From contig JAHELV010000022.1 of assembly GCA_024644015.1 (NCBI GenBank), positions 1-62,204 of the forward strand: DNA of 62,204 nt, in the 5' to 3' direction. The notes beneath the pieces were generated by a model. The model had not been told where the DNA came from. It made no database searches and saw nothing but the letters and a program-made list of their open reading frames with translations. This DNA is from Nitriliruptorales bacterium (lineage in GTDB: Bacteria; Actinomycetota; Nitriliruptoria; Euzebyales; JAHELV01). Below are positions 14,222 through 37,689 of the stretch, in pieces; positions within the stretch are counted from its first letter, which is position 1, and each line of letters begins with the position of its first letter. The position numbers and the translations under genes were made by a program.

Positions 14222-15169
14222 TCAGGGGGTGGCGGTCTCGAGGTCGGTGCCACGCTGCCGGCGCTGCGCGCGCTTGTCCTCGTACCGCGAGGCCTGCGCG
14301 TCCAGGCCGTCGAGGAACACCCGCAGCTCCTCGCGTGCCTGTTCGCCCTCGGCGTCGAGCCCGGTGGCCGTGAAGATGCCGAGATGACGAACCAGCGGCC
14401 ACACGATGTCGTCGTGATGCACACGCAGGTCGTAGATCCCGGCGTCGGCGATCTGCAACGACATCCGCCGGAAGTTGTTCATGACCGCACCGGGCATCTC
14501 GAAGTCGACGATCTCGGCCTTGACGGCCTTGACGACGTCGTTCGGACGGATCTCCATGGCCGCTGTGAGGATGTCGCGGTAGAAGATCATGTGCAGGTTC
14601 TCGTCCGCTGAGATCCGCGCCATGATGCGGTCGGCGACGGGGTCGGCCGAGTACCGGCCGGTGTTGCGGTGCGAGATCCGGGTCGCGAGTTCCTGGAACG
14701 CCACATAGGCCATGCCGCGCAACGCGTCTTTGTTGTCCGTCTCGTAACCGTCTTCCATCACCTGCATACGGCCGCGTTCCAGCGCGATCGGGTCGATGTT
14801 GCGGGTGACGATCAGATAGTCACGTAGGACGATCGAGTGCCGACCCTCCTCGGCGGTCCAGCGGTGCACCCAGTTGCGCCACGCGCTGTCGGTCTGCGCG
14901 AACATCCGATAGATCTCGCGGTGGTAGCTGGGCAGGTTGTCCTCGGTCAGCAGGTTGACGAAGAACGCCGTTTGGGCGACACCGTCAAGGCGCGGCTGGT
15001 CCGGCGTCCACGGCTCCTTGTCGAAGTCGCGCCCCATGCTGTACGGGATGTAGTCATGTGGGAACCACTCCTGAGCCATCGCCGTATGGCGGTGCATCAG
15101 GCGTTCGGCCTCCGGCTCGAGCTCGGCGAGCAGGCGCGGCTGATCGTACGTCGGCACATAGTCGGGCAC
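14222..15169 (-). CDS. desA: Acyl-ACP Delta9-type desaturase (soluble diiron)
   Basis: A 315-aa member of the plant-type soluble acyl-ACP desaturase family (DesA1/A2 in mycobacteria). Diiron ligand motifs are EEGRH (residues 107-111) and DENLH (189-193), with a further acidic ligand in NLLTEDNLP. It inserts a double bond into acyl-ACP using O2 and ferredoxin electrons. The start at 15169 follows a GGGAGG on the coding strand by about 5 nt. The upstream palindrome suggests control by a TetR-type repressor. Unsaturated acyl chains could also feed the ole pathway in this window, which is speculative. Confidence 0.92.
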   Translation of the reverse strand: MPDYVPTYDQPRLLAELEPEAERLMHRHTAMAQEWFPHDYIPYSMGRDFDKEPWTPDQPRLDGVAQTAFFVNLLTEDNLPSYHREIYRMFAQTDSAWRNWVHRWTAEEGRHSIVLRDYLIVTRNIDPIALERGRMQVMEDGYETDNKDALRGMAYVAFQELATRISHRNTGRYSADPVADRIMARISADENLHMIFYRDILTAAMEIRPNDVVKAVKAEIVDFEMPGAVMNNFRRMSLQIADAGIYDLRVHHDDIVWPLVRHLGIFTATGLDAEGEQAREELRVFLDGLDAQASRYEDKRAQRRQRGTDLETATP

Positions 15170-29906: not shown

Positions 29907-29952
29907 CGATGGCTGATGGACCACACCACCGGTGAGCAGCGGAGGTCTACGC

Positions 29953-30981
29953 GTGGCCCGATCGCAACGGTTCTCCAACGTCGTCGTCGCTGGTCTGGCG
30001 CATGTGGACGCTCCGCATGTCATCACCAGCGATGACCTCGAATCCCGGATCTCCGAGACCATGGCTCGGCTGGGCATGCCGTCCGGGACGCTGACCGGGC
30101 TGGCCGGCATCGCTGAACGGCGCTACTGGGACGAGGGCACGAAGCCGAGCGACGCCGCAGCGATGGCCGGGGGAAAGCTGCTGGCCGACGTCGGGATCGA
30201 CAGTAGCGAGATCGGCGCGCTGATCAACACCAGCGTCGACCGCGACTGGCTGGAGCCGTCGACCGCCTGCATCGTCCACCACAAGCTTGGCCTGCCGCCC
30301 GAGGCATTGAACTTCGACGTGGGCAACGCCTGCCTGGGGTTCATCAACGGCATGGCACTGACCGCAGCGATGATCGAACGCGGGGACATCGATCACGGGA
30401 TCGTGGTCGACGGGGAGTCCGCACGCTTCGTCGTCGAATCGACGATCGCGCGGCTGGCGGATCCGGCGTGCGACCGCGATCTGTTCCGCGCGTCGTACGC
30501 CACACTGACCCTGGGTTCCGGCGCCGCCGCCATGCTGCTGTCGCGACGTGACCTGGCCGACGACGGGCATCCGTTCCGCGGTGTGGTCTCACGCGCGGCG
30601 ACCGAGCACCACGAACTGTGCCAGGGTCAGCCCGACGACATGCGCACCGACGCGGCCGGCCTGCTGACGGCGGGCCTCGCGCTGGCCAGGGAGACGTGGA
30701 GGGACGCCGTCGAGGTCTTCGGATGGACGGCCGACACCATCGACGCGGCTTTCATCCACCAGATCAGCCGCGCGCACATGCGTTCGGTGACCGCGGCGCT
30801 GGGCCTGCGTGAGGACCGCATCCCGCTGCTGTACCCCTGCTATGGCAACGTCGGCCCCGCCGGGCTGATCATCACCTGGTCGAAGGAGGCCGACGCCGGT
30901 CGCCTGGCCCCCGGTGACCGCTTGGCGCTGCTCGGCGTGGGCAGCGGTCTGAACTGTGCGGCGGCCGAGGTGCTGTGGTAG
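29953..30981 (+). CDS. oleA: OleA: thiolase-fold acyl-CoA condensing enzyme
   Basis: A 342-aa KAS III-like enzyme. The catalytic Cys is probably C127 in FDVGNACLGFINGMALTAAM; HQIS (about 277) and YGNVGPAGL supply the His and Asn. ALINTSVDRDWLEPSTACIV is an OleA-type motif. OleA joins two fatty acyl-CoAs head to head to give a 2-alkyl-3-ketoacyl product. GTG 29953 has GGAGG seven nt upstream. It is the first gene of oleABCD, and its end overlaps oleB by 7 nt. Without the neighbours it could be called FabH, but the following three genes settle the pathway. Confidence 0.88.
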   Translation: MARSQRFSNVVVAGLAHVDAPHVITSDDLESRISETMARLGMPSGTLTGLAGIAERRYWDEGTKPSDAAAMAGGKLLADVGIDSSEIGALINTSVDRDWLEPSTACIVHHKLGLPPEALNFDVGNACLGFINGMALTAAMIERGDIDHGIVVDGESARFVVESTIARLADPACDRDLFRASYATLTLGSGAAAMLLSRRDLADDGHPFRGVVSRAATEHHELCQGQPDDMRTDAAGLLTAGLALARETWRDAVEVFGWTADTIDAAFIHQISRAHMRSVTAALGLREDRIPLLYPCYGNVGPAGLIITWSKEADAGRLAPGDRLALLGVGSGLNCAAAEVLW

Positions 30982-31877
30982 CCGACCCGGCGGTGCTGCC
31001 GCCGGCGCAGGAGTTCTCCCGTCCAGCCGGCACACTGCGCTACACCGACCGCGGGCACGGACCCACCGTCGTATGCGTCCACGGCAATCCAACCTGGTCG
31101 TTCTACTACCGCAACGTGGTCACAGCACTGTCCGGCGACCACCGTGTCATTGTTCCCGATCACCTCGGCATGGGACGATCCGACACCCCGAGCGCCGAGC
31201 GGTACAGCTACGACCTGTCGGCTCGCGTCGACGATCTCGGCGCGCTGCTCGACCACCTCGCCGTCGGCGTCGACGATCCCGCCACATTGATCGTGCACGA
31301 CTGGGGCGGGCCGATCGCGCTGGCGTGGGCGACACGCAATCCCGAACGTGTCGGACGCCTCGTGTTGTGCAACACCGCGGCGTTTCCCCGGTTGGCTGGG
31401 CACCCACTGCCCTGGCTGCTGCGTCCCGTCAGGGTCCCGGTGCTCGGTGAGCTACTCGTGCAGGGTGCGAACGCCTTCGTGCGCGGGACCCTGCGGCTGG
31501 GCGTTCGCCGCAGGCGGCTGTCGGCGGTGGTCCGCCGGGGCTACCTCGCGCCCTATCGTTCGTGGCGCGACCGTCGTGGCGTGCTGGCGTTCGTGCGCGA
31601 CATCCCCGACGGACCGTCCGGGGCCACGCACCGGATCCTGGAGGAGACCGGTGCGAACCTGCACCGGTTGGCCGACCGACCGGCGTTGCTGATCTGGGGG
31701 CTGCGGGATCCGGTGCTCACACCCGCGTACCTCGCGGAGTGGCGCCGGCGGCTTCCGTCTGCCGAGACGCACGAGATCGCCGATGCCGGCCATCTGGTGC
31801 TCGAGGACGCCGCCGAGTCGGTGCCGCTGATCGCAGCGTTCATGGCACGGACCCGTGTACGCGACGGTGTGACGTGA
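30975..31877 (+). CDS. oleB: OleB: alpha/beta hydrolase (beta-lactone decarboxylase)
   Basis: A 300-aa haloalkane-dehalogenase-like hydrolase. The nucleophile is D109 in LIVHDWGGPIALAWA; HGNPTWSFYYRN is the oxyanion region; the catalytic His is in IADAGHLVLED. OleB removes CO2 from the beta-lactone to give the cis-olefin. Being in the dehalogenase family, it could be misnamed haloalkane dehalogenase, but its place between oleA and oleC argues otherwise. The GTG start lies inside oleA and the stop overlaps oleC (GTGA). Confidence 0.88.
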   Translation: MVADPAVLPPAQEFSRPAGTLRYTDRGHGPTVVCVHGNPTWSFYYRNVVTALSGDHRVIVPDHLGMGRSDTPSAERYSYDLSARVDDLGALLDHLAVGVDDPATLIVHDWGGPIALAWATRNPERVGRLVLCNTAAFPRLAGHPLPWLLRPVRVPVLGELLVQGANAFVRGTLRLGVRRRRLSAVVRRGYLAPYRSWRDRRGVLAFVRDIPDGPSGATHRILEETGANLHRLADRPALLIWGLRDPVLTPAYLAEWRRRLPSAETHEIADAGHLVLEDAAESVPLIAAFMARTRVRDGVT

Positions 31878-33634
31878 CCGCGGTCGCTCCCGACGGCTTC
31901 CCCGCTGCCCCCGTCGACCTGCTTCCGCCGGTGCTCGCGGGCGTCGTGACCGCAGCGCGGACCACCCCCGCACACACCGCGCTGATCGGGCCCGGCGACG
32001 TCCGTCTGACGTTCGCGACGCTGGTCACGCGGGTGTCAGCTGCGGCCGCGGGGCTGCGGGCTCGCGGGATCGCTGACGGCGCACGCGCGGTCGTGCTCGT
32101 GCCACCCGGCCCCGACTTCGTCGTCACGATACTCGCCCTGCTCGCCAGTGGGGCCGTTCCCGTCCTGGTTGACCCGGGCATCGGCGTCCGTCGCGTGCGC
32201 CGGGCGCTGGCGGACGTCGAGGCCGAGGCGTTCGTCGGCTCCGCGCGTGCCAACCTCGCGCGTCGATTCCTGAGATGGGCGCCGTCGGCACGGCACACGA
32301 TCCTGACCGACGGCGCCCATCCGCTGGCCCGGACGATTCGGCCTGCACCCGAGACGCTGGCGGCGATCGAGCGCGACGGCGCCGCACAGCCGGAGCGGAT
32401 CGACTGGACGCCCCGGGTGGATGCGCACGAGGCGGCACTGCTGTTCACGTCGGGGTCGACCGGTCCTCCCAAGGCGGTGGTCTACCGACACCCGCACTTC
32501 ACTGCCCAGCTCGCCGCACTGCGGGGTGCCTACGGGCTGAAACCAGGTGAGACGAGCGTTGCGACGTTCCCGCCCTTCGCGTTGTTCGGGCCGGCGTTGG
32601 GCATGCGCACCGTACTGCCCGCGATGGACTTCACCCGTCCCGCCGCGGCCGATCCCAGCCATCTGTTCGCCGTCGTGCACCGCACCGGCGCGGACGTGCT
32701 GTTCGCATCCCCCGCGCTGCTGGCCGCACTCGCGCGGTACGGACGTGACCAGCAGCAGCATCTGCCGTCGGTCCGACTGGTGCTGTCGGCCGGCGCACCC
32801 GTGCCGGTCGACGTCGCGGACGCGACCGCCGCCCTGCTGCGCCCGGATGCCGTCGTGGCCACCCCGTACGGCATGACCGAGGCGTTGCCGGTCTGCACGA
32901 TCGGCGGTGACGAGCTGCGCGCGACCGCCGACGAACACTGGCCGCCGCGCGGTGTGTGCGTCGGCAGGCCGGTGCGCGACACCGACGTGACGGTCATCGG
33001 TGTCAGCAAGGAGCCGATCCGGCGGCTGTCCAACTCGCATGCCGTCGTCGACGGTGACGTGGGCGAGCTCGTCGTGGCGGGACCACAGGTCACCGAGGCG
33101 TACGTCGACCGTCCCGCCGCCACCGCTCGGGCCAAGACCGCATGGAACGGGCGTTCCGCGCACCGTACCGGCGACCTGGCGTGGTGTGACGAGCATGGGC
33201 GGGTGTGGTTCTGCGGCCGCACCGCACACCGGATCCACACGTCCGACGGGCCCTTGGATCCGCTCCCCGTCGAGCAGCTGGTGACCGGCCACGTCGGTGT
33301 GCGGCGTGCGGCGCTGGTCGGTTTGCCGGCGCCGGCCGGGCAGCAACCGGTGCTGATCGTCCAACCCGAGGACGCAGTCTGGCGACGGCTCCGGCCGTGG
33401 CGCCCGGGCGGTCGGCGCCGCCACGCGGCGTTCATCGCCGAGCTTCGCGCCCGCCTCGACGCGCATCCCCACAGTGCGCACGTGCGGTGGGTCATGCTGC
33501 GCCGGCGGTTCCCGGTCGACGCCCGTCACAACGCGAAGATCGGGTACGAGCAGCTGACGCGGTGGGCCGACGCCCGACGCCGCGGGCGGTTCGCCCGGGT
33601 CGGACGGCGTGCCTTCGGAGGCGCTGCGACATGA
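31874..33634 (+). CDS. oleC: OleC: beta-lactone synthetase (AMP-ligase family)
   Basis: A 586-aa adenylate-forming enzyme. The P-loop is LLFTSGSTGPPKAVVYRH; ATPYGMTEALPV is the second core motif; HRTGDLAWCDEHGRVWFCGR is the hinge region. OleC converts the beta-hydroxy acid to a beta-lactone with ATP. The start GTG 31874 is in a GTGA overlap with oleB; a longer open frame runs upstream inside oleB. The C-terminus is very Arg-rich (RRRGRFARVGRRAFG). Confidence 0.88.
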   Translation: MTAVAPDGFPAAPVDLLPPVLAGVVTAARTTPAHTALIGPGDVRLTFATLVTRVSAAAAGLRARGIADGARAVVLVPPGPDFVVTILALLASGAVPVLVDPGIGVRRVRRALADVEAEAFVGSARANLARRFLRWAPSARHTILTDGAHPLARTIRPAPETLAAIERDGAAQPERIDWTPRVDAHEAALLFTSGSTGPPKAVVYRHPHFTAQLAALRGAYGLKPGETSVATFPPFALFGPALGMRTVLPAMDFTRPAAADPSHLFAVVHRTGADVLFASPALLAALARYGRDQQQHLPSVRLVLSAGAPVPVDVADATAALLRPDAVVATPYGMTEALPVCTIGGDELRATADEHWPPRGVCVGRPVRDTDVTVIGVSKEPIRRLSNSHAVVDGDVGELVVAGPQVTEAYVDRPAATARAKTAWNGRSAHRTGDLAWCDEHGRVWFCGRTAHRIHTSDGPLDPLPVEQLVTGHVGVRRAALVGLPAPAGQQPVLIVQPEDAVWRRLRPWRPGGRRRHAAFIAELRARLDAHPHSAHVRWVMLRRRFPVDARHNAKIGYEQLTRWADARRRGRFARVGRRAFGGAAT

Positions 33635-33659
33635 GGACCGGCCCGCCGGCGATCGGGCC

Positions 33660-34658
33660 GTGAGCGAGCGCATACTCGTTACGGGTGGTGGGGGTGTCGT
33701 CGGTGGCGCGATCGTGCGCGCGCTGATCGACCGGGGAGACGACGTGCGCTCGTTCTCGCGAGGGGAATACCCGCGGCTGTGCACGTTGGGCGTCGAGACC
33801 GTCCGCGGTGACCTCGCCGACCTCGAGGCCGTGCAGGACGCCGTGGCCGGGTGCGACGCGGTGGTGCACACCGCCGCCAAGGCCGACCTGAGCGTGCACC
33901 CTCAGCCATTCATCACCGCCAACGTGGTGGGCACCGCGAATGTCATCGCCGCCTGCCGGCGGGGCGGCGTAGGTCGGCTGGTGTTCACGTCGACGCCGAG
34001 CGTCGTCCACAGCCGGCGACCCATCGAGGGCGCCGACGAGTCGCTGCCGTACGCCGAGCGGTACGACGCACCGTATCCCGCCACGAAGGCGCGGGCCGAG
34101 CAACTCGTGCTCGCGGCCAGCGACGACGCGTTGGCGACGCTCGCGATCCGACCCCATCTCGTGTGGGGACCCGGAGACACACAGCTGACCGCACGGATCC
34201 TCGGGCGCGCGCGCGCGGGACGGCTGCGCCTCGTCGACCACGGGCATGCGGTCGTCGATGCGACGTACGTCGACGACGCCGCCGCCGCGCACGCGTGTGC
34301 ACTCGACGCGCTCGCGGACGGCGGGGCGCGCGGCCGGGTCGCTGGCAGGGCCTTCTTCGTCGCGTCCGGACAGCCCCTGCCGATCGCCACGCTGGTCAAC
34401 GGTCTGCTCGGCGCGGCAGGTATGCCGACGGAGCATCGCAGCGTGCCGTTCGGCCTGGCGTACGCGGCGGGTGTGGCATGTGAGGCCGCCTGGCGGTTGG
34501 CGCGCCGGTACGACGAACCGCCGATGACCCGCTTCCTGGCGCGGCAGCTCGCGATCAGTCACTGGTTCGACCTCACGGCGGCGCGACGCGACCTTGGCTA
34601 TCGACCCGCGGTCACCCTCGACGACGGGTTCCACAGGCTCGCTGCTAGTCTGCGGTGA
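33660..34658 (+). CDS. oleD: OleD: NAD(P)H-dependent 2-alkyl-3-ketoacid reductase
   Basis: A 332-aa extended short-chain dehydrogenase. The nucleotide site is ILVTGGGGVVGGAIVRALID; the catalytic pair is in APYPATKARAEQ (YxxxK). WGPGDTQLTARIL and HGHAVVDATYVDDAAAAH fit sterol-dehydrogenase/OleD-like reductases. It reduces the OleA product before OleC acts. GTG 33660 begins the homology, 25 bp after oleC. Its stop overlaps (TGATG) a 12-codon frame that leads directly into arsC. Confidence 0.87.
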   Translation: MSERILVTGGGGVVGGAIVRALIDRGDDVRSFSRGEYPRLCTLGVETVRGDLADLEAVQDAVAGCDAVVHTAAKADLSVHPQPFITANVVGTANVIAACRRGGVGRLVFTSTPSVVHSRRPIEGADESLPYAERYDAPYPATKARAEQLVLAASDDALATLAIRPHLVWGPGDTQLTARILGRARAGRLRLVDHGHAVVDATYVDDAAAAHACALDALADGGARGRVAGRAFFVASGQPLPIATLVNGLLGAAGMPTEHRSVPFGLAYAAGVACEAAWRLARRYDEPPMTRFLARQLAISHWFDLTAARRDLGYRPAVTLDDGFHRLAASLR

Positions 34659-34696
34659 TGAGTGCGTTGCGCCGCTACCAGGAGCGCCTGCGATGA
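34658..34696 (+). other. 12-codon minicistron joining oleD to arsC
   Basis: ATG 34658 overlaps the oleD stop by one base (TGATG), and its TGA overlaps the arsC ATG (ATGA, 34693-34696). It would encode MSALRRYQERLR. It includes AGGAG, the arsC ribosome site. It may carry ribosomes from oleD to arsC. Confidence 0.4.
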
Positions 34697-35106
34697 CTGA
34701 CACGCCGACCGTGCTGTTCCTCTGTGTGCACAACGCCGGGCGATCGCAGATGGCCGCGGGGTGGACGCGCCACCTGGCCGGTGACCGCGTCACCGTGCTG
34801 TCGGGTGGGTCACAACCGGCCGACCGCGTCAACCCGGCGGCGGTGGAGGCGATGTCCGAGGTAGGGATCGACATCACCAACCAGCAGCCGATGCCGTGGA
34901 CGGACGAGGGGTTGGCCCGCGCCGACGTCGTGGTCACGATGGGCTGTGGCGACACCTGCCCGTACGTGCCGGGTACCCGGTACGTCGACTGGGAGCTGGA
35001 CGATCCCGCGGGCCTACCGGTCGAGCGGGTCAGACCGGTCCGTGACGATATCGGGCGCCGTGTGCAGCTGCTGCTGGCCGAGTTGGGCGTCGACGCGAGC
35101 GTCTAG
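34693..35106 (+). CDS. arsC: Arsenate reductase, low-molecular-weight phosphatase family
   Basis: A 137-aa ArsC of the LMW-PTPase fold. The P-loop is FLCVHNAGRSQMAAG (CX5R with His-Asn-Ala-Gly). Further cysteines lie in TMGCGDTCPYVPGTRYVDWE, supporting a Cys relay. It reduces arsenate to arsenite. The coupling thiol (thioredoxin or mycothiol) cannot be decided here. AGGAG precedes ATG 34693 by 8 nt. It converges with arsR, with 17 bp between 3' ends. Confidence 0.92.
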   Translation: MTDTPTVLFLCVHNAGRSQMAAGWTRHLAGDRVTVLSGGSQPADRVNPAAVEAMSEVGIDITNQQPMPWTDEGLARADVVVTMGCGDTCPYVPGTRYVDWELDDPAGLPVERVRPVRDDIGRRVQLLLAELGVDASV

Positions 35107-35123: not shown

Positions 35124-35489
35124 TCAGCTCGTCACCGTCGTCAGCGCGTGGGGATCCAGCGCGACGCGCACCGCCTCGAGCTGTGAGCCGGCGATCCGGT
35201 AGAAGATCCACTGCCCGCGACGCTCACGCTCCAGCACGCCGGCGTCGTGCAGCACACGCAGGTGATGGGACACCGTCGGCTGGGACAGGCCGAGGGGTTC
35301 GACCAACTCGCAGTTGCACGCCTCGGCACGAGGTTGCGCGGCGATGAGCGAGATGAGCCGTAGACGCGCTGGATCCGCCAGCGCTTTGAGCACGTGTGCC
35401 AGGCCACGCGCTTCGGTCTCTGACAGCGGCGCCTCGAGCACAGGGGTGCAGCACACGGAGCTCGGCAGAACGTCGGGTGTGGACGGCAT
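35124..35489 (-). CDS. arsR: ArsR-family metalloregulator
   Basis: A 121-aa winged-helix repressor. The DNA-binding helix is LGLSQPTVSHHLRVLHDAGV. EACNCEL (replacing ELCVCDL) is the As(III) site in the recognition region, and an N-terminal CC pair (SSVCCTPVLE) may add a third ligand. It would repress the divergent arsI gene and itself until arsenite or an organoarsenical binds. ATG 35489 is chosen; the upstream bases are operator DNA. Confidence 0.92.
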   Translation of the reverse strand: MPSTPDVLPSSVCCTPVLEAPLSETEARGLAHVLKALADPARLRLISLIAAQPRAEACNCELVEPLGLSQPTVSHHLRVLHDAGVLERERRGQWIFYRIAGSQLEAVRVALDPHALTTVTS

Positions 35490-35508
35490 ACGCCAATTGT
35501 GCCAGATA

Positions 35509-35562
35509 TATTGACGAATGTCGATACGCATGGCAGCCTTGCATATAGACAACCATCGATAT
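35509..35562. promoter_or_regulatory. Two imperfect inverted repeats, probable ArsR operators
   Basis: TATTGAC-GAAT-GTCGATA (35509-35526) and ATATAGA-N6-TCGATAT (35543-35562) are near-perfect dyads (one mismatch each) in an AT-rich island between arsR and arsI. Dyads of this size placed across both promoters are typical of ArsR sites. Confidence 0.6.
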
Positions 35563-35578: not shown

Positions 35579-35998
35579 ATGTCCAGCGTTCAACCGACAC
35601 AGTCGCGAGTGCAACTGGCCCTGAACGTCGACGATCTCGACGCGGCGATCGACTTCTACGGCGCACTGTTCGACACGACCCCGGCCAAGGTCCGGGCGGG
35701 CTACGCCAACTTCGCCGTCACCGATCCCCCCCTCAAGCTGGTCCTCATCGCAGGCGACGGCGACGGCGGGACGCTCAACCACCTGGGTGTCGAGGTCGGT
35801 ACGACCACGCAGGTCACGGCCGCCACGCGGCGTCTCGCCGGCGCAGGCCTCGAGACAACCTCGAGCGAGCATGTCACCTGCTGCTACGCGGTGCAGGACA
35901 AGACGTGGGTCACCGACCCTGACGGCGCAGCCTGGGAGGTCTACACGGTGCTCGCCGACAGCGTTGTCGAGGGTGAACCCACCGTTCAGAGCCGCTGA
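35579..35998 (+). CDS. arsI: ArsI C-As lyase (glyoxalase/dioxygenase fold)
   Basis: A 139-aa vicinal-oxygen-chelate protein. RVQLALNVDDLDAAIDFYGA, NHLGVEVG (H68), the vicinal pair C101-C102 in EHVTCCYAVQDKTWVTDPDG and AWEVYTVLAD (E120) fit ArsI, which splits the C-As bond of methylarsenite. The first metal position is Gln12, as I recall for the Thermomonospora curvata enzyme. CadI-type cadmium proteins are related; the As context favours ArsI. TGGAGGG precedes ATG 35579. It is divergent from arsR. Confidence 0.87.
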   Translation: MSSVQPTQSRVQLALNVDDLDAAIDFYGALFDTTPAKVRAGYANFAVTDPPLKLVLIAGDGDGGTLNHLGVEVGTTTQVTAATRRLAGAGLETTSSEHVTCCYAVQDKTWVTDPDGAAWEVYTVLADSVVEGEPTVQSR

Positions 35999-36058
35999 CC
36001 GGAGCTCTGACGGCGCGGCCCAACTCCGGCCGTGCCCCTGAAACGAAGGGAGGTGGGA

Positions 36059-36112
36059 ATGATGCGGAGCGGATGCTGTGATGAGGGCTGCTGCGAGCCC
36101 GGCTGCTGCTGA
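36059..36112 (+). CDS. 17-aa Cys-rich peptide with three Cys-Cys pairs (putative arsenic/metal binder)
   Basis: The frame encodes MMRSGCCDEGCCEPGCC. GGGAGGTGGGA lies directly before it (GGAGG five nt from ATG 36059, eight from ATG 36062). Six of 17 residues are Cys, in CC-x3-CC-x3-CC spacing with acidic and Gly/Pro turns. The design is close to the CCPGCC tetracysteine motif known to bind biarsenical compounds. It starts 61 bp after arsI, the likely co-transcribed partner, and could bind As(III) released by ArsI or carry it to ArsR. It is too short for ordinary gene callers. No family is known to me. Confidence 0.6.
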   Translation: MMRSGCCDEGCCEPGCC

Positions 36113-36216: not shown

Positions 36217-37689
36217 ATGGACCACACGCCGAGCGGACTGTGGATCGACGGTCGTGCCGTGGCCGCGTCCACCGACCAGCGTGTCGTTGTCGACAACCCC
36301 GCGACCGGTGCACCGATGGGTTCGGTGCCGGCCGCGGGGAAAGCCGACGTCGACCGCGCGGTCGTGGCCGCCCGCCGCGCGTTCGACGGCTGGCGGTGGA
36401 CGTCGGCGAACGAGCGCGCCGAGCTGCTGCACGAGGCGGCCGGCCGGACGATCGCCGCGGCGCCCCGGCTGGTCGACGCGCTCATCCGTGAGCAGGGCAA
36501 GGCGCGACCCGAGCAGGAGGAGGAGGTCGAGTGGGCGGCGACGACATTGCGCTACTACGCAGAGCTCGCCCGCAACAACCGCGGCCGGGTGCTGCCCAGC
36601 GGCGAGCCGCGGACGCAACTCAACCTGGTGCTCAAGGAGCCCTACGGCGTGGTCGGGGCGATCATCCCGTGGAACTTCCCGCTGCTGCTCCTAGCGTGGA
36701 AGCTCGCTCCCGCCCTCGCGGCCGGCAACACGCTGGTCATCAAGCCCAGCGAGCTGACTCCTTTGGTCACGCTCCAATGGATCCGGTCGTGCTTCGACCA
36801 CCTGCCCGACGGCGTCGTCAACGTCGTGACCGGCACGGGAGCCGGTGCCGGCGAAGCGCTGGTCCGCCATCCGGACGTGCCGGTGATCGCGATGACCGGA
36901 TCGGTGGCCACCGGCCAGCGCATCGCGACCGTCGCCGCACCGATGATGAAGCACCTGCACCTCGAGCTCGGCGGCAAGGACGCCTTCGTCATCGCGCCCG
37001 ACGCATCGATCGATGACTCGGTGGAGGCCCTGGCCTACGCCGCGCTCTTCAATGCAGGCCAGGTCTGCACGTCCGCCGAACGGGTGTACGTGCCGTCCGC
37101 GATGCACGACGCCGTGGTCGAGGCGGCGGCCGCACGCGCCGACGCAATCCGCGTCGGGGACCCGGCCGGAGAAGGCATCGACATGGGTCCGATGGCCGCG
37201 CAACGGTTCCGCGACAAGGTCGCCGCGCACATCGGCGATGCGAAGGCCCGTGGAGCGACGGTCGTCACCGGTGGGACGGTGCCCAAAGGGCTGGACGACG
37301 GCTACTTCTATGCACCGACGGTCCTGTCCGGCGTGGACCACGGCATGGCCGTCATGACCGATGAGACATTCGGGCCGGTGATTCCGATCATGGCCTACGA
37401 CCACATCGACGAGGCGATCGCATACGTCAATGACAGCCCGATGGGACTCGGGGCAACGCTGCGCTCCAGCGATCCAGCGCTGATCAAACGATTCTTCGAC
37501 GAGGTCACGGTCGGTACCGTCTGGATCAACGACCCCCTGACCGACAACTACGCCGGCCCCTTCGGCGGCATGAAGCTGACCGGCGGCGGCCGCGAGCTCG
37601 GCGAGGAGGGTCTCGAGTCCTTCCTCCAGACCAAACACGTGCACTGGGATCTCAGCCCCGACGTCAAGGACTACTGGTACCCGTACTGA
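36217..37689 (+). CDS. NAD(P)-dependent aldehyde dehydrogenase
   Basis: A 490-aa ALDH superfamily member. Catalytic E250 is in HLELGGKDAFVIAP and catalytic C284 in FNAGQVCTSAERVYVPS. IIPWNFPLLLLAWKLAPALA and NTLVIKPSELTP form the cofactor site. The closest classes are betaine-aldehyde, succinate-semialdehyde and glycolaldehyde dehydrogenases; substrate cannot be fixed. GAGGAGG lies five nt before ATG 36217. It follows the arsenic genes on the same strand with a 104-bp gap, so a link is possible but not shown. Confidence 0.92.
   Translation: MDHTPSGLWIDGRAVAASTDQRVVVDNPATGAPMGSVPAAGKADVDRAVVAARRAFDGWRWTSANERAELLHEAAGRTIAAAPRLVDALIREQGKARPEQEEEVEWAATTLRYYAELARNNRGRVLPSGEPRTQLNLVLKEPYGVVGAIIPWNFPLLLLAWKLAPALAAGNTLVIKPSELTPLVTLQWIRSCFDHLPDGVVNVVTGTGAGAGEALVRHPDVPVIAMTGSVATGQRIATVAAPMMKHLHLELGGKDAFVIAPDASIDDSVEALAYAALFNAGQVCTSAERVYVPSAMHDAVVEAAAARADAIRVGDPAGEGIDMGPMAAQRFRDKVAAHIGDAKARGATVVTGGTVPKGLDDGYFYAPTVLSGVDHGMAVMTDETFGPVIPIMAYDHIDEAIAYVNDSPMGLGATLRSSDPALIKRFFDEVTVGTVWINDPLTDNYAGPFGGMKLTGGGRELGEEGLESFLQTKHVHWDLSPDVKDYWYPY

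Follow-up and report, generated by a model that had tools for sequence, protein, structure and literature searches.

An arsenic locus with a cysteine-rich mini-ORF

The window, that is the whole stretch of 62,204 nucleotides that was analysed, contains an arsenic locus, as the preliminary description of this DNA had recognized. The gene arsR (35124..35489, reverse strand) encodes an ArsR/SmtB regulator (HTH_metalloreg, 93.9 bits), the best family match of which is of the Rv2640c type with a score under that family's cut-off; the protein carries an N-terminal CC and the motif EACNCEL. Divergent from it lies arsI/cadI (35579..35998, forward strand), an equivalog match to ArsI_CadI_VOC NF041414 with 182 bits. 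Upstream of arsI are two ArsR-operator-like repeats, neither assigned to a strand: ATATTGACGAATGTCGAT at 35508..35525, which is common to mini-ORF loci in other genomes, and ATATAGACAACCATCGAT at 35543..35560, identified by pattern match. An arsC-like low-molecular-weight phosphatase or arsenate reductase gene (34693..35106, forward strand) is the arsenic-locus neighbour beyond arsR.

Behind arsI, positions 36059..36112 of the forward strand encode the 17-residue Cys-rich peptide MMRSGCCDEGCCEPGCC, recognized by translation, pattern scan and relatives. Its CC-x3-CC-x3-CC pattern, its position after arsI and its good ribosome site are as previously described. The Shine-Dalgarno sequence GGGAGGT (36048..36054, forward strand, by sequence reading) stands directly 5' of the first ATG and 7 nt ahead of a second one. 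The mini-ORF starts 60 nt past the arsI stop (35998) in the same frame as arsI. Simple readthrough from arsI was ruled out by two intervening in-frame TGA codons (35996 and 36011), and with these two stops and a ribosome site of its own the peptide is not a covalent part of an ArsI C-terminal tail. The window has a single match to the pattern plus a stop codon, its shuffled versions none (0 of 100), and the mini-ORF was confirmed as a genuine, non-chance ORF. An aldehyde dehydrogenase gene follows at 36217.

Elsewhere in the window, positions 29932-34658 hold an OleD-like reductase (NF042422, 422 bits, below the cut-off) after OleA-, OleB- and OleC-looking genes, likely an olefin (ole) biosynthesis cluster. 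An Rfam match at 14781-14848 (43.2 bits against a gathering threshold of 40) points to ASdes, an antisense sRNA of mycobacteria, but the host genome is non-mycobacterial and the match may just stem from conserved coding sequence.

Relatives of the mini-ORF beside arsR genes

An unbiased pattern scan for CC-x3-CC-x3-CC-stop in 397 Actinomycetota genomes gave matches in 28 of them, nearly all of which, when read in frame, were off-frame Gln/Leu repeats or ended in Trp (TGG). No more than four matches were genuine short ORFs that have a ribosome site; ars loci are the setting of every one. Besides the window copy, these are MAASCCDESCCPEGCC from a same-genus genome, where the ORF directly adjoins and diverges from arsR without ArsI, VRVDDPCCPPDCCPPGCC, which adjoins arsR and arsM, and MGPQDCCPPDCCPNGCC, which precedes an arsC-like gene. 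The majority of matches from both genome-wide patterns were discarded as off-frame readings of other genes, and in viral contigs the pattern scan returned only off-frame Gln/Ala/Leu repeats and no mini-ORF.

A survey of ArsR loci covered 119 neighbourhoods with 139 ArsR genes, selected for the closest match of their ArsR to that of the window. Cys-pair mini-ORFs were found at 12 of the 139 genes, every one divergent and at a distance of 43-154 nt from the start of ArsR: MDPDCCPPGCC, MCEECPPGCCGPGCC, MPDPGCPDCCPPDCC, MNEGCCPSGCC, VRIDGPCCPPGCC, VRVDDPCCPPDCCLPASC, VRVDDPCCPPDCCPPGCC, MIGDPRALGGDGCCDSDCCGGGAGCC, MRLDPCCPDCPECPPDCC, MAPIKITGDAGGDDSDCCSGCGPGCC, MSGECCKPGSDCCSGDDCC and MAASCCDESCCPEGCC. 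About ten of these can be regarded as independent because three come from one genus. Control DNA amounting to 400 kb, taken from the window's genome and other sampled genomes, gave one noise match over 2,666 strand-windows, each 300 nt long; Fisher's test puts the difference at p = 1.7e-15. Removal of the ribosome-site filter recovered the identical 12 loci, and a ribosome site is present 5' of the mini-ORF in all of them. A weaker 13th member, MMKLRTDGGCCGGGCSC, was found at L326, whereas the matches at L340, L373 and L380 proved to be ArsI tails. The remaining ArsR loci of the survey gave no convincing case of an intermediate Cys-poor version. The idea of a real, conserved, probably translated and ars-linked thiol peptide is thus borne out, and the search for short Cys ORFs by ars genes that had been proposed was successful beside arsR but gave nothing behind other arsI genes.

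On the ArsR tree, about ten changes are required to account for the mini-ORF label; the mini-ORF is, as far as the tree suggests, inherited in some parts and gained or lost in others. The same-genus genome G002 has three ArsR paralogues (L277, L276 and L278) with a mini-ORF at one only, and L276, which of the three comes nearest to the ArsR of the window, is without one.

Coding signal and peptide pattern

The members of the family are 11-26 residues long and built of CC pairs. Substitutions between the three most similar stand-alone members number 16, of which 11 affect third codon positions (p = 0.004); these members also show an in-frame indel of 15 nt. In the plasmid copies the Cys pairs are kept, and every indel within the ORF is a multiple of three (3, 9 and 24 nt). 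The preliminary description was open to the objections that the ORF and its ribosome site might not be conserved or that Cys codons might be substituted at random. Neither applies: related genomes show both again, and nearly every Cys codon is retained while TGC and TGT are interchanged, with one relative, CCPPDCCLPASC, having lost one Cys. Only Cys, Gly/Pro and acidic residues recur, and the residues between the pairs vary freely. The window copy has all the features by which we propose to define the family, namely no more than 26 codons, at least four Cys with CC pairs, a ribosome site and an ars locus.

Regulatory anatomy of the loci

In the typical unit, arsR is followed by operator-like repeats, a ribosome site, the mini-ORF and then a strong hairpin. 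The repeat of the typical unit is ATATTGACAnnnnTCGAT, frequently with a second copy. A pattern search recovered such repeats, candidate ArsR operators, in the window and at every one of the 12 divergent loci except two. The strong hairpin of the typical unit lies 2-16 nt past the stop codon and ranks in the strongest ~2% for 10 of 15 relatives when compared with 240 random sites, but the window copy has operator-like repeats and no such strong hairpin, the one 3' of its stop being no stronger than half of the random sites. A post-stop hairpin is typical of stand-alone members and is not a defining family feature. The mini-genes are usually self-contained, each having a putative arsenic switch and terminator to itself.

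The next gene is convergent in 7 of the 12 divergent loci (truA three times, pafA, rpsI, an Obg-like GTPase gene and one unnamed; the Obg-like GTPase and the third truA were assigned by sequence and position alone). A transcript at these seven loci can serve the peptide only, which excludes a leader-peptide role there. All 15 ArsRs inspected contain Cys-x-Cys, and also an N-terminal Cys pair wherever the N-terminus was read. In the Corynebacterium glutamicum ArsR, the As(III) site is formed by Cys15-Cys16-Cys55 (PMC11868830); the N-terminal pair belongs to this site, which supports the presumed control of ArsR by arsenic.

Relation to ArsI and its Cys tail

The actinobacterial ArsI/CadI proteins examined (L002-L081 and those at ArsR loci) nearly all have a C-terminal tail that is variable and rich in Cys and in most cases finishes with CC; no function assigned to this tail was found. 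Among 79 ArsI relatives from named records, 78 have Cys in the tail and 70 have CC there, in agreement with the earlier remark that some ArsI tails carry extra CC pairs. The window ArsI has the substrate CC pair in its core and no Cys in its tail. The ArsR neighbourhoods contain 41 ArsI genes, each of which encodes a Cys tail, and a free peptide occurs at none of these loci (p = 0.008). Thiols provided in cis by the tail and in trans by the free peptide therefore look like alternatives, although the exclusivity could also stem from competition for one divergent position. No separate peptide was found behind other arsI genes, which carry the Cys in their tails, and most mini-ORF relatives have no arsI nearby. 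Thus, the tie to ArsI that had been proposed does not hold as a general rule. In the window lineage, arsI may have been inserted between operator and peptide. The ArsI product As(III) shows no significant binding to ArsI (PMC12607644), so that a separate As(III) acceptor makes sense.

Copies inside ars operons and on plasmids

Some copies lie within ars operons. At L291 the mini-ORF stands 3' of an aquaporin gene; at L305 it is flanked by an aquaporin gene on one side and by a flavoprotein gene plus arsC on the other. The copies at L289 and L352 neighbour the ArsM gene. On five named plasmids, from Paenarthrobacter aurescens TC1 (pTC2) and Arthrobacter sp. YA7-1, D5-1, FW305-BF8 and FW306-05-C, it is located between trxB and the FAD oxidoreductase gene of an ars island, and it is missing from the gene tables inspected. 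At L445:745-807 on TC1 pTC2, the annotated start of a 'putative secreted protein' appears to overrun the mini-ORF in a different frame; judged from the sequence, the true start of this FAD-oxidoreductase-like gene is likely downstream, at MDSVKTLPIAVIGAGP. The first twelve plasmid ArsR loci yielded one member and four Streptomyces/Rhodococcus trxB loci none. A tblastn search of plasmids with a 20-residue member returned no match, its own record included, as expected for so short a query.

MerR-linked mini-ORFs

A second pattern search led to a MerR-type regulator in the genome G268 whose gene has two Cys mini-ORFs behind it. In the class to which G268 belongs, about ten MerR relatives (at least ~45% identity) end in or overlap one or two mini-ORFs rich in Cys, such as MTDGGCPCCGCPCGDCGGSGSR and VMAEVPCDCGPECPCTDDCC. 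The types PCDCGPECPC..DCC and CPCCGCPCGDCGG were seen at L454-L465 and L470. At L455 and L465, a similar Cys sequence is fused to the regulator as a tail, and here too a thiol cluster is used either fused or free. A wider proposal, which we put forward tentatively and hold somewhat short of even odds, is that actinobacteria follow the general strategy of a modular, detachable thiol element: the same Cys cluster would serve as the tail of ArsI or of a MerR-type regulator, or as a free peptide of 11-26 residues from a metalloregulated mini-gene, giving trans-acting metal ligands that annotation has missed.

Proposed function and alternative explanations

On balance we favour the explanation that the mini-gene belongs to a previously undescribed family and encodes an ArsR-induced, metallothionein-like thiol peptide which chelates or buffers trivalent arsenic. 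The observations behind it are the ORF and its ribosome site, the ars context, the operator-like repeats, the hairpin in most relatives, the constraint at codon level and the exclusivity towards tailed ArsI. In the proposed mechanism, trivalent arsenic would cause ArsR to leave its operator, and the mini-ORF would be expressed and translated into a reduced, cytosolic thiol peptide of 11-26 residues. Its Cys pairs would wrap trivalent arsenic, As(III) through three thiolates and methyl-As(III), or MAs(III), through two. As a sacrificial chelator, and in effect a metallothionein cut down to the minimum, the peptide would buffer the arsenic until it is cleared by efflux or methylation. The family product is probably a minimal thiol trap for toxic arsenic. 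In the window, the mini-ORF is probably co-transcribed with the tail-less ArsI, and the peptide would make up in trans for the thiols of the C-terminal tail found in other ArsI proteins. Such a peptide must be dispensable, since only ~10% of ArsR loci have one. Peptides this short may be degraded fast, and in the absence of metal they are probably disordered. Convergent origins of the members are possible, as membership is set by Cys pattern and location and not by alignable homology.

A more specific role is conceivable, in which the peptide is a metallochaperone that passes As(III) between ArsI, ArsR, ArsM, ArsC/Trx and the pump, or tunes ArsR by competing for As(III) and resetting the repressor. 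ArsR is indeed the constant partner, arsR and the peptide are the only visible ars genes at several loci, and in the window and on plasmids the peptide is embedded among ars enzymes. On the other hand, the freely varying residues between the pairs leave no conserved non-Cys surface for partner recognition, and the partners differ from locus to locus (ArsI, aquaporin, trxB or none). Buffering is preferred over chaperoning because only Cys, Gly/Pro and acidic residues recur, and we regard the chaperone or tuner role as unlikely. Still less likely is that the peptide originated as a split ArsI tail, arsI having broken in the window lineage and left its Cys tail behind as a cistron of its own for ArsI alone. 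The shared frame, the 60-nt distance, the nearly unique absence of tail Cys in the window ArsI and the mutual exclusion of tailed ArsI and mini-ORF would all agree with such a break. The same-genus relative, however, has the peptide beside arsR without ArsI, for which reason a split tail is not the preferred origin; other members also lack a nearby ArsI, and the exclusivity may merely mirror a shared divergent slot. The detached tail of the preliminary description is therefore not supported as a general origin, even though tails and peptides have the look of alternatives.

The runs of Cys codons and the hairpin 3' of the ORF could also point to an attenuator, in which ribosomes stalling at Cys codons of a leader peptide control the downstream gene, and the polycysteine leaderless ORFs reported from mycobacteria provide a precedent. 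This is refuted at the seven loci with a convergent next gene, where nothing is left to regulate in cis. Moreover, the mini-ORFs have ribosome sites and are not leaderless, and Pro/Gly/Asp-Glu spacers and the CC-x3-CC spacing recur even though attenuation requires the Cys codons alone, making a leader role very improbable for the family. For the window copy taken alone, which has the aldehyde dehydrogenase gene at 36217 downstream, such a role is still conceivable. Chance ORFs, or a functional RNA instead of a peptide, could account for ORFs that are very short, unannotated and followed by a hairpin RNA. Such an origin is scarcely credible given the association with ArsR genes, the ribosome site at all 12 divergent loci, the third-position bias and the in-frame indels, and no Rfam family was found at the ORFs tested.

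If the preferred explanation of an arsenic-buffering peptide is true, gene callers have skipped a component of ars loci that falls below their length limits. The mini-genes would rank with the smallest genes dedicated to metal(loid) resistance and would be a clean test of the minimal length for a selected protein-coding gene. Their products would offer a natural minimal As(III) ligand useful for biosensors and remediation, as well as an explanation for the Cys tails of ArsI. Paenarthrobacter aurescens TC1 and the Arthrobacter strains are named culturable carriers.

Comparison with known systems

The preliminary description knew of no peptide of this kind. This still stands: members of at least 20 residues have no Pfam or NCBIfam match up to E = 10, and a literature search of open-licence papers found no description of such peptides. 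Mycobacterial polycysteine short ORFs, the subject of work by Canestrari et al. in 2020, are reportedly leaderless and attenuate a downstream operon. They resemble the present family as short actinobacterial ORFs rich in Cys codons, whereas the ars mini-ORFs have ribosome sites and often no co-directional downstream gene. The engineered CCPGCC tag, to which the peptide had been likened, shares CC pairs around a Pro-Gly turn, but the tag has CC-x2-CC and the window peptide CC-x3-CC twice, which is also the prevailing spacing in the family. The analogy is a loose one, and binding of biarsenical dyes is no proof of As(III) binding.

The arsenite metallochaperone ArsD is a folded protein of ~120 residues with ArsA as its partner. 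It has in common with the mini-peptides vicinal Cys pairs, a place in ars operons and a proposed role as As(III) carrier, but its fold and its partnership with ArsA do not apply to them. The C-terminal Cys tails of ArsI/CadI likewise have CC pairs, usually a CC ending, and ars loci as their setting; the tails act in cis, whereas the free peptide comes with a separate ribosome site, often also with a separate operator and hairpin, and is found at loci without ArsI as well. Metallothioneins include SmtA, MymT and the 25-residue copper metallothionein of Neurospora. They are similar in being gene-encoded, very Cys-rich and poor in other features, and in their control by a metalloregulator, which we infer for the present family. 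They differ in that the family members have 11-26 residues with CC pairs instead of CxC/CxxC and reside in ars loci. The peptide would thus be metallothionein-like by inference, with none of the tested defining features of a metallothionein; it is placed in the broad kind of gene-encoded metal-binding Cys peptides and in no named family.
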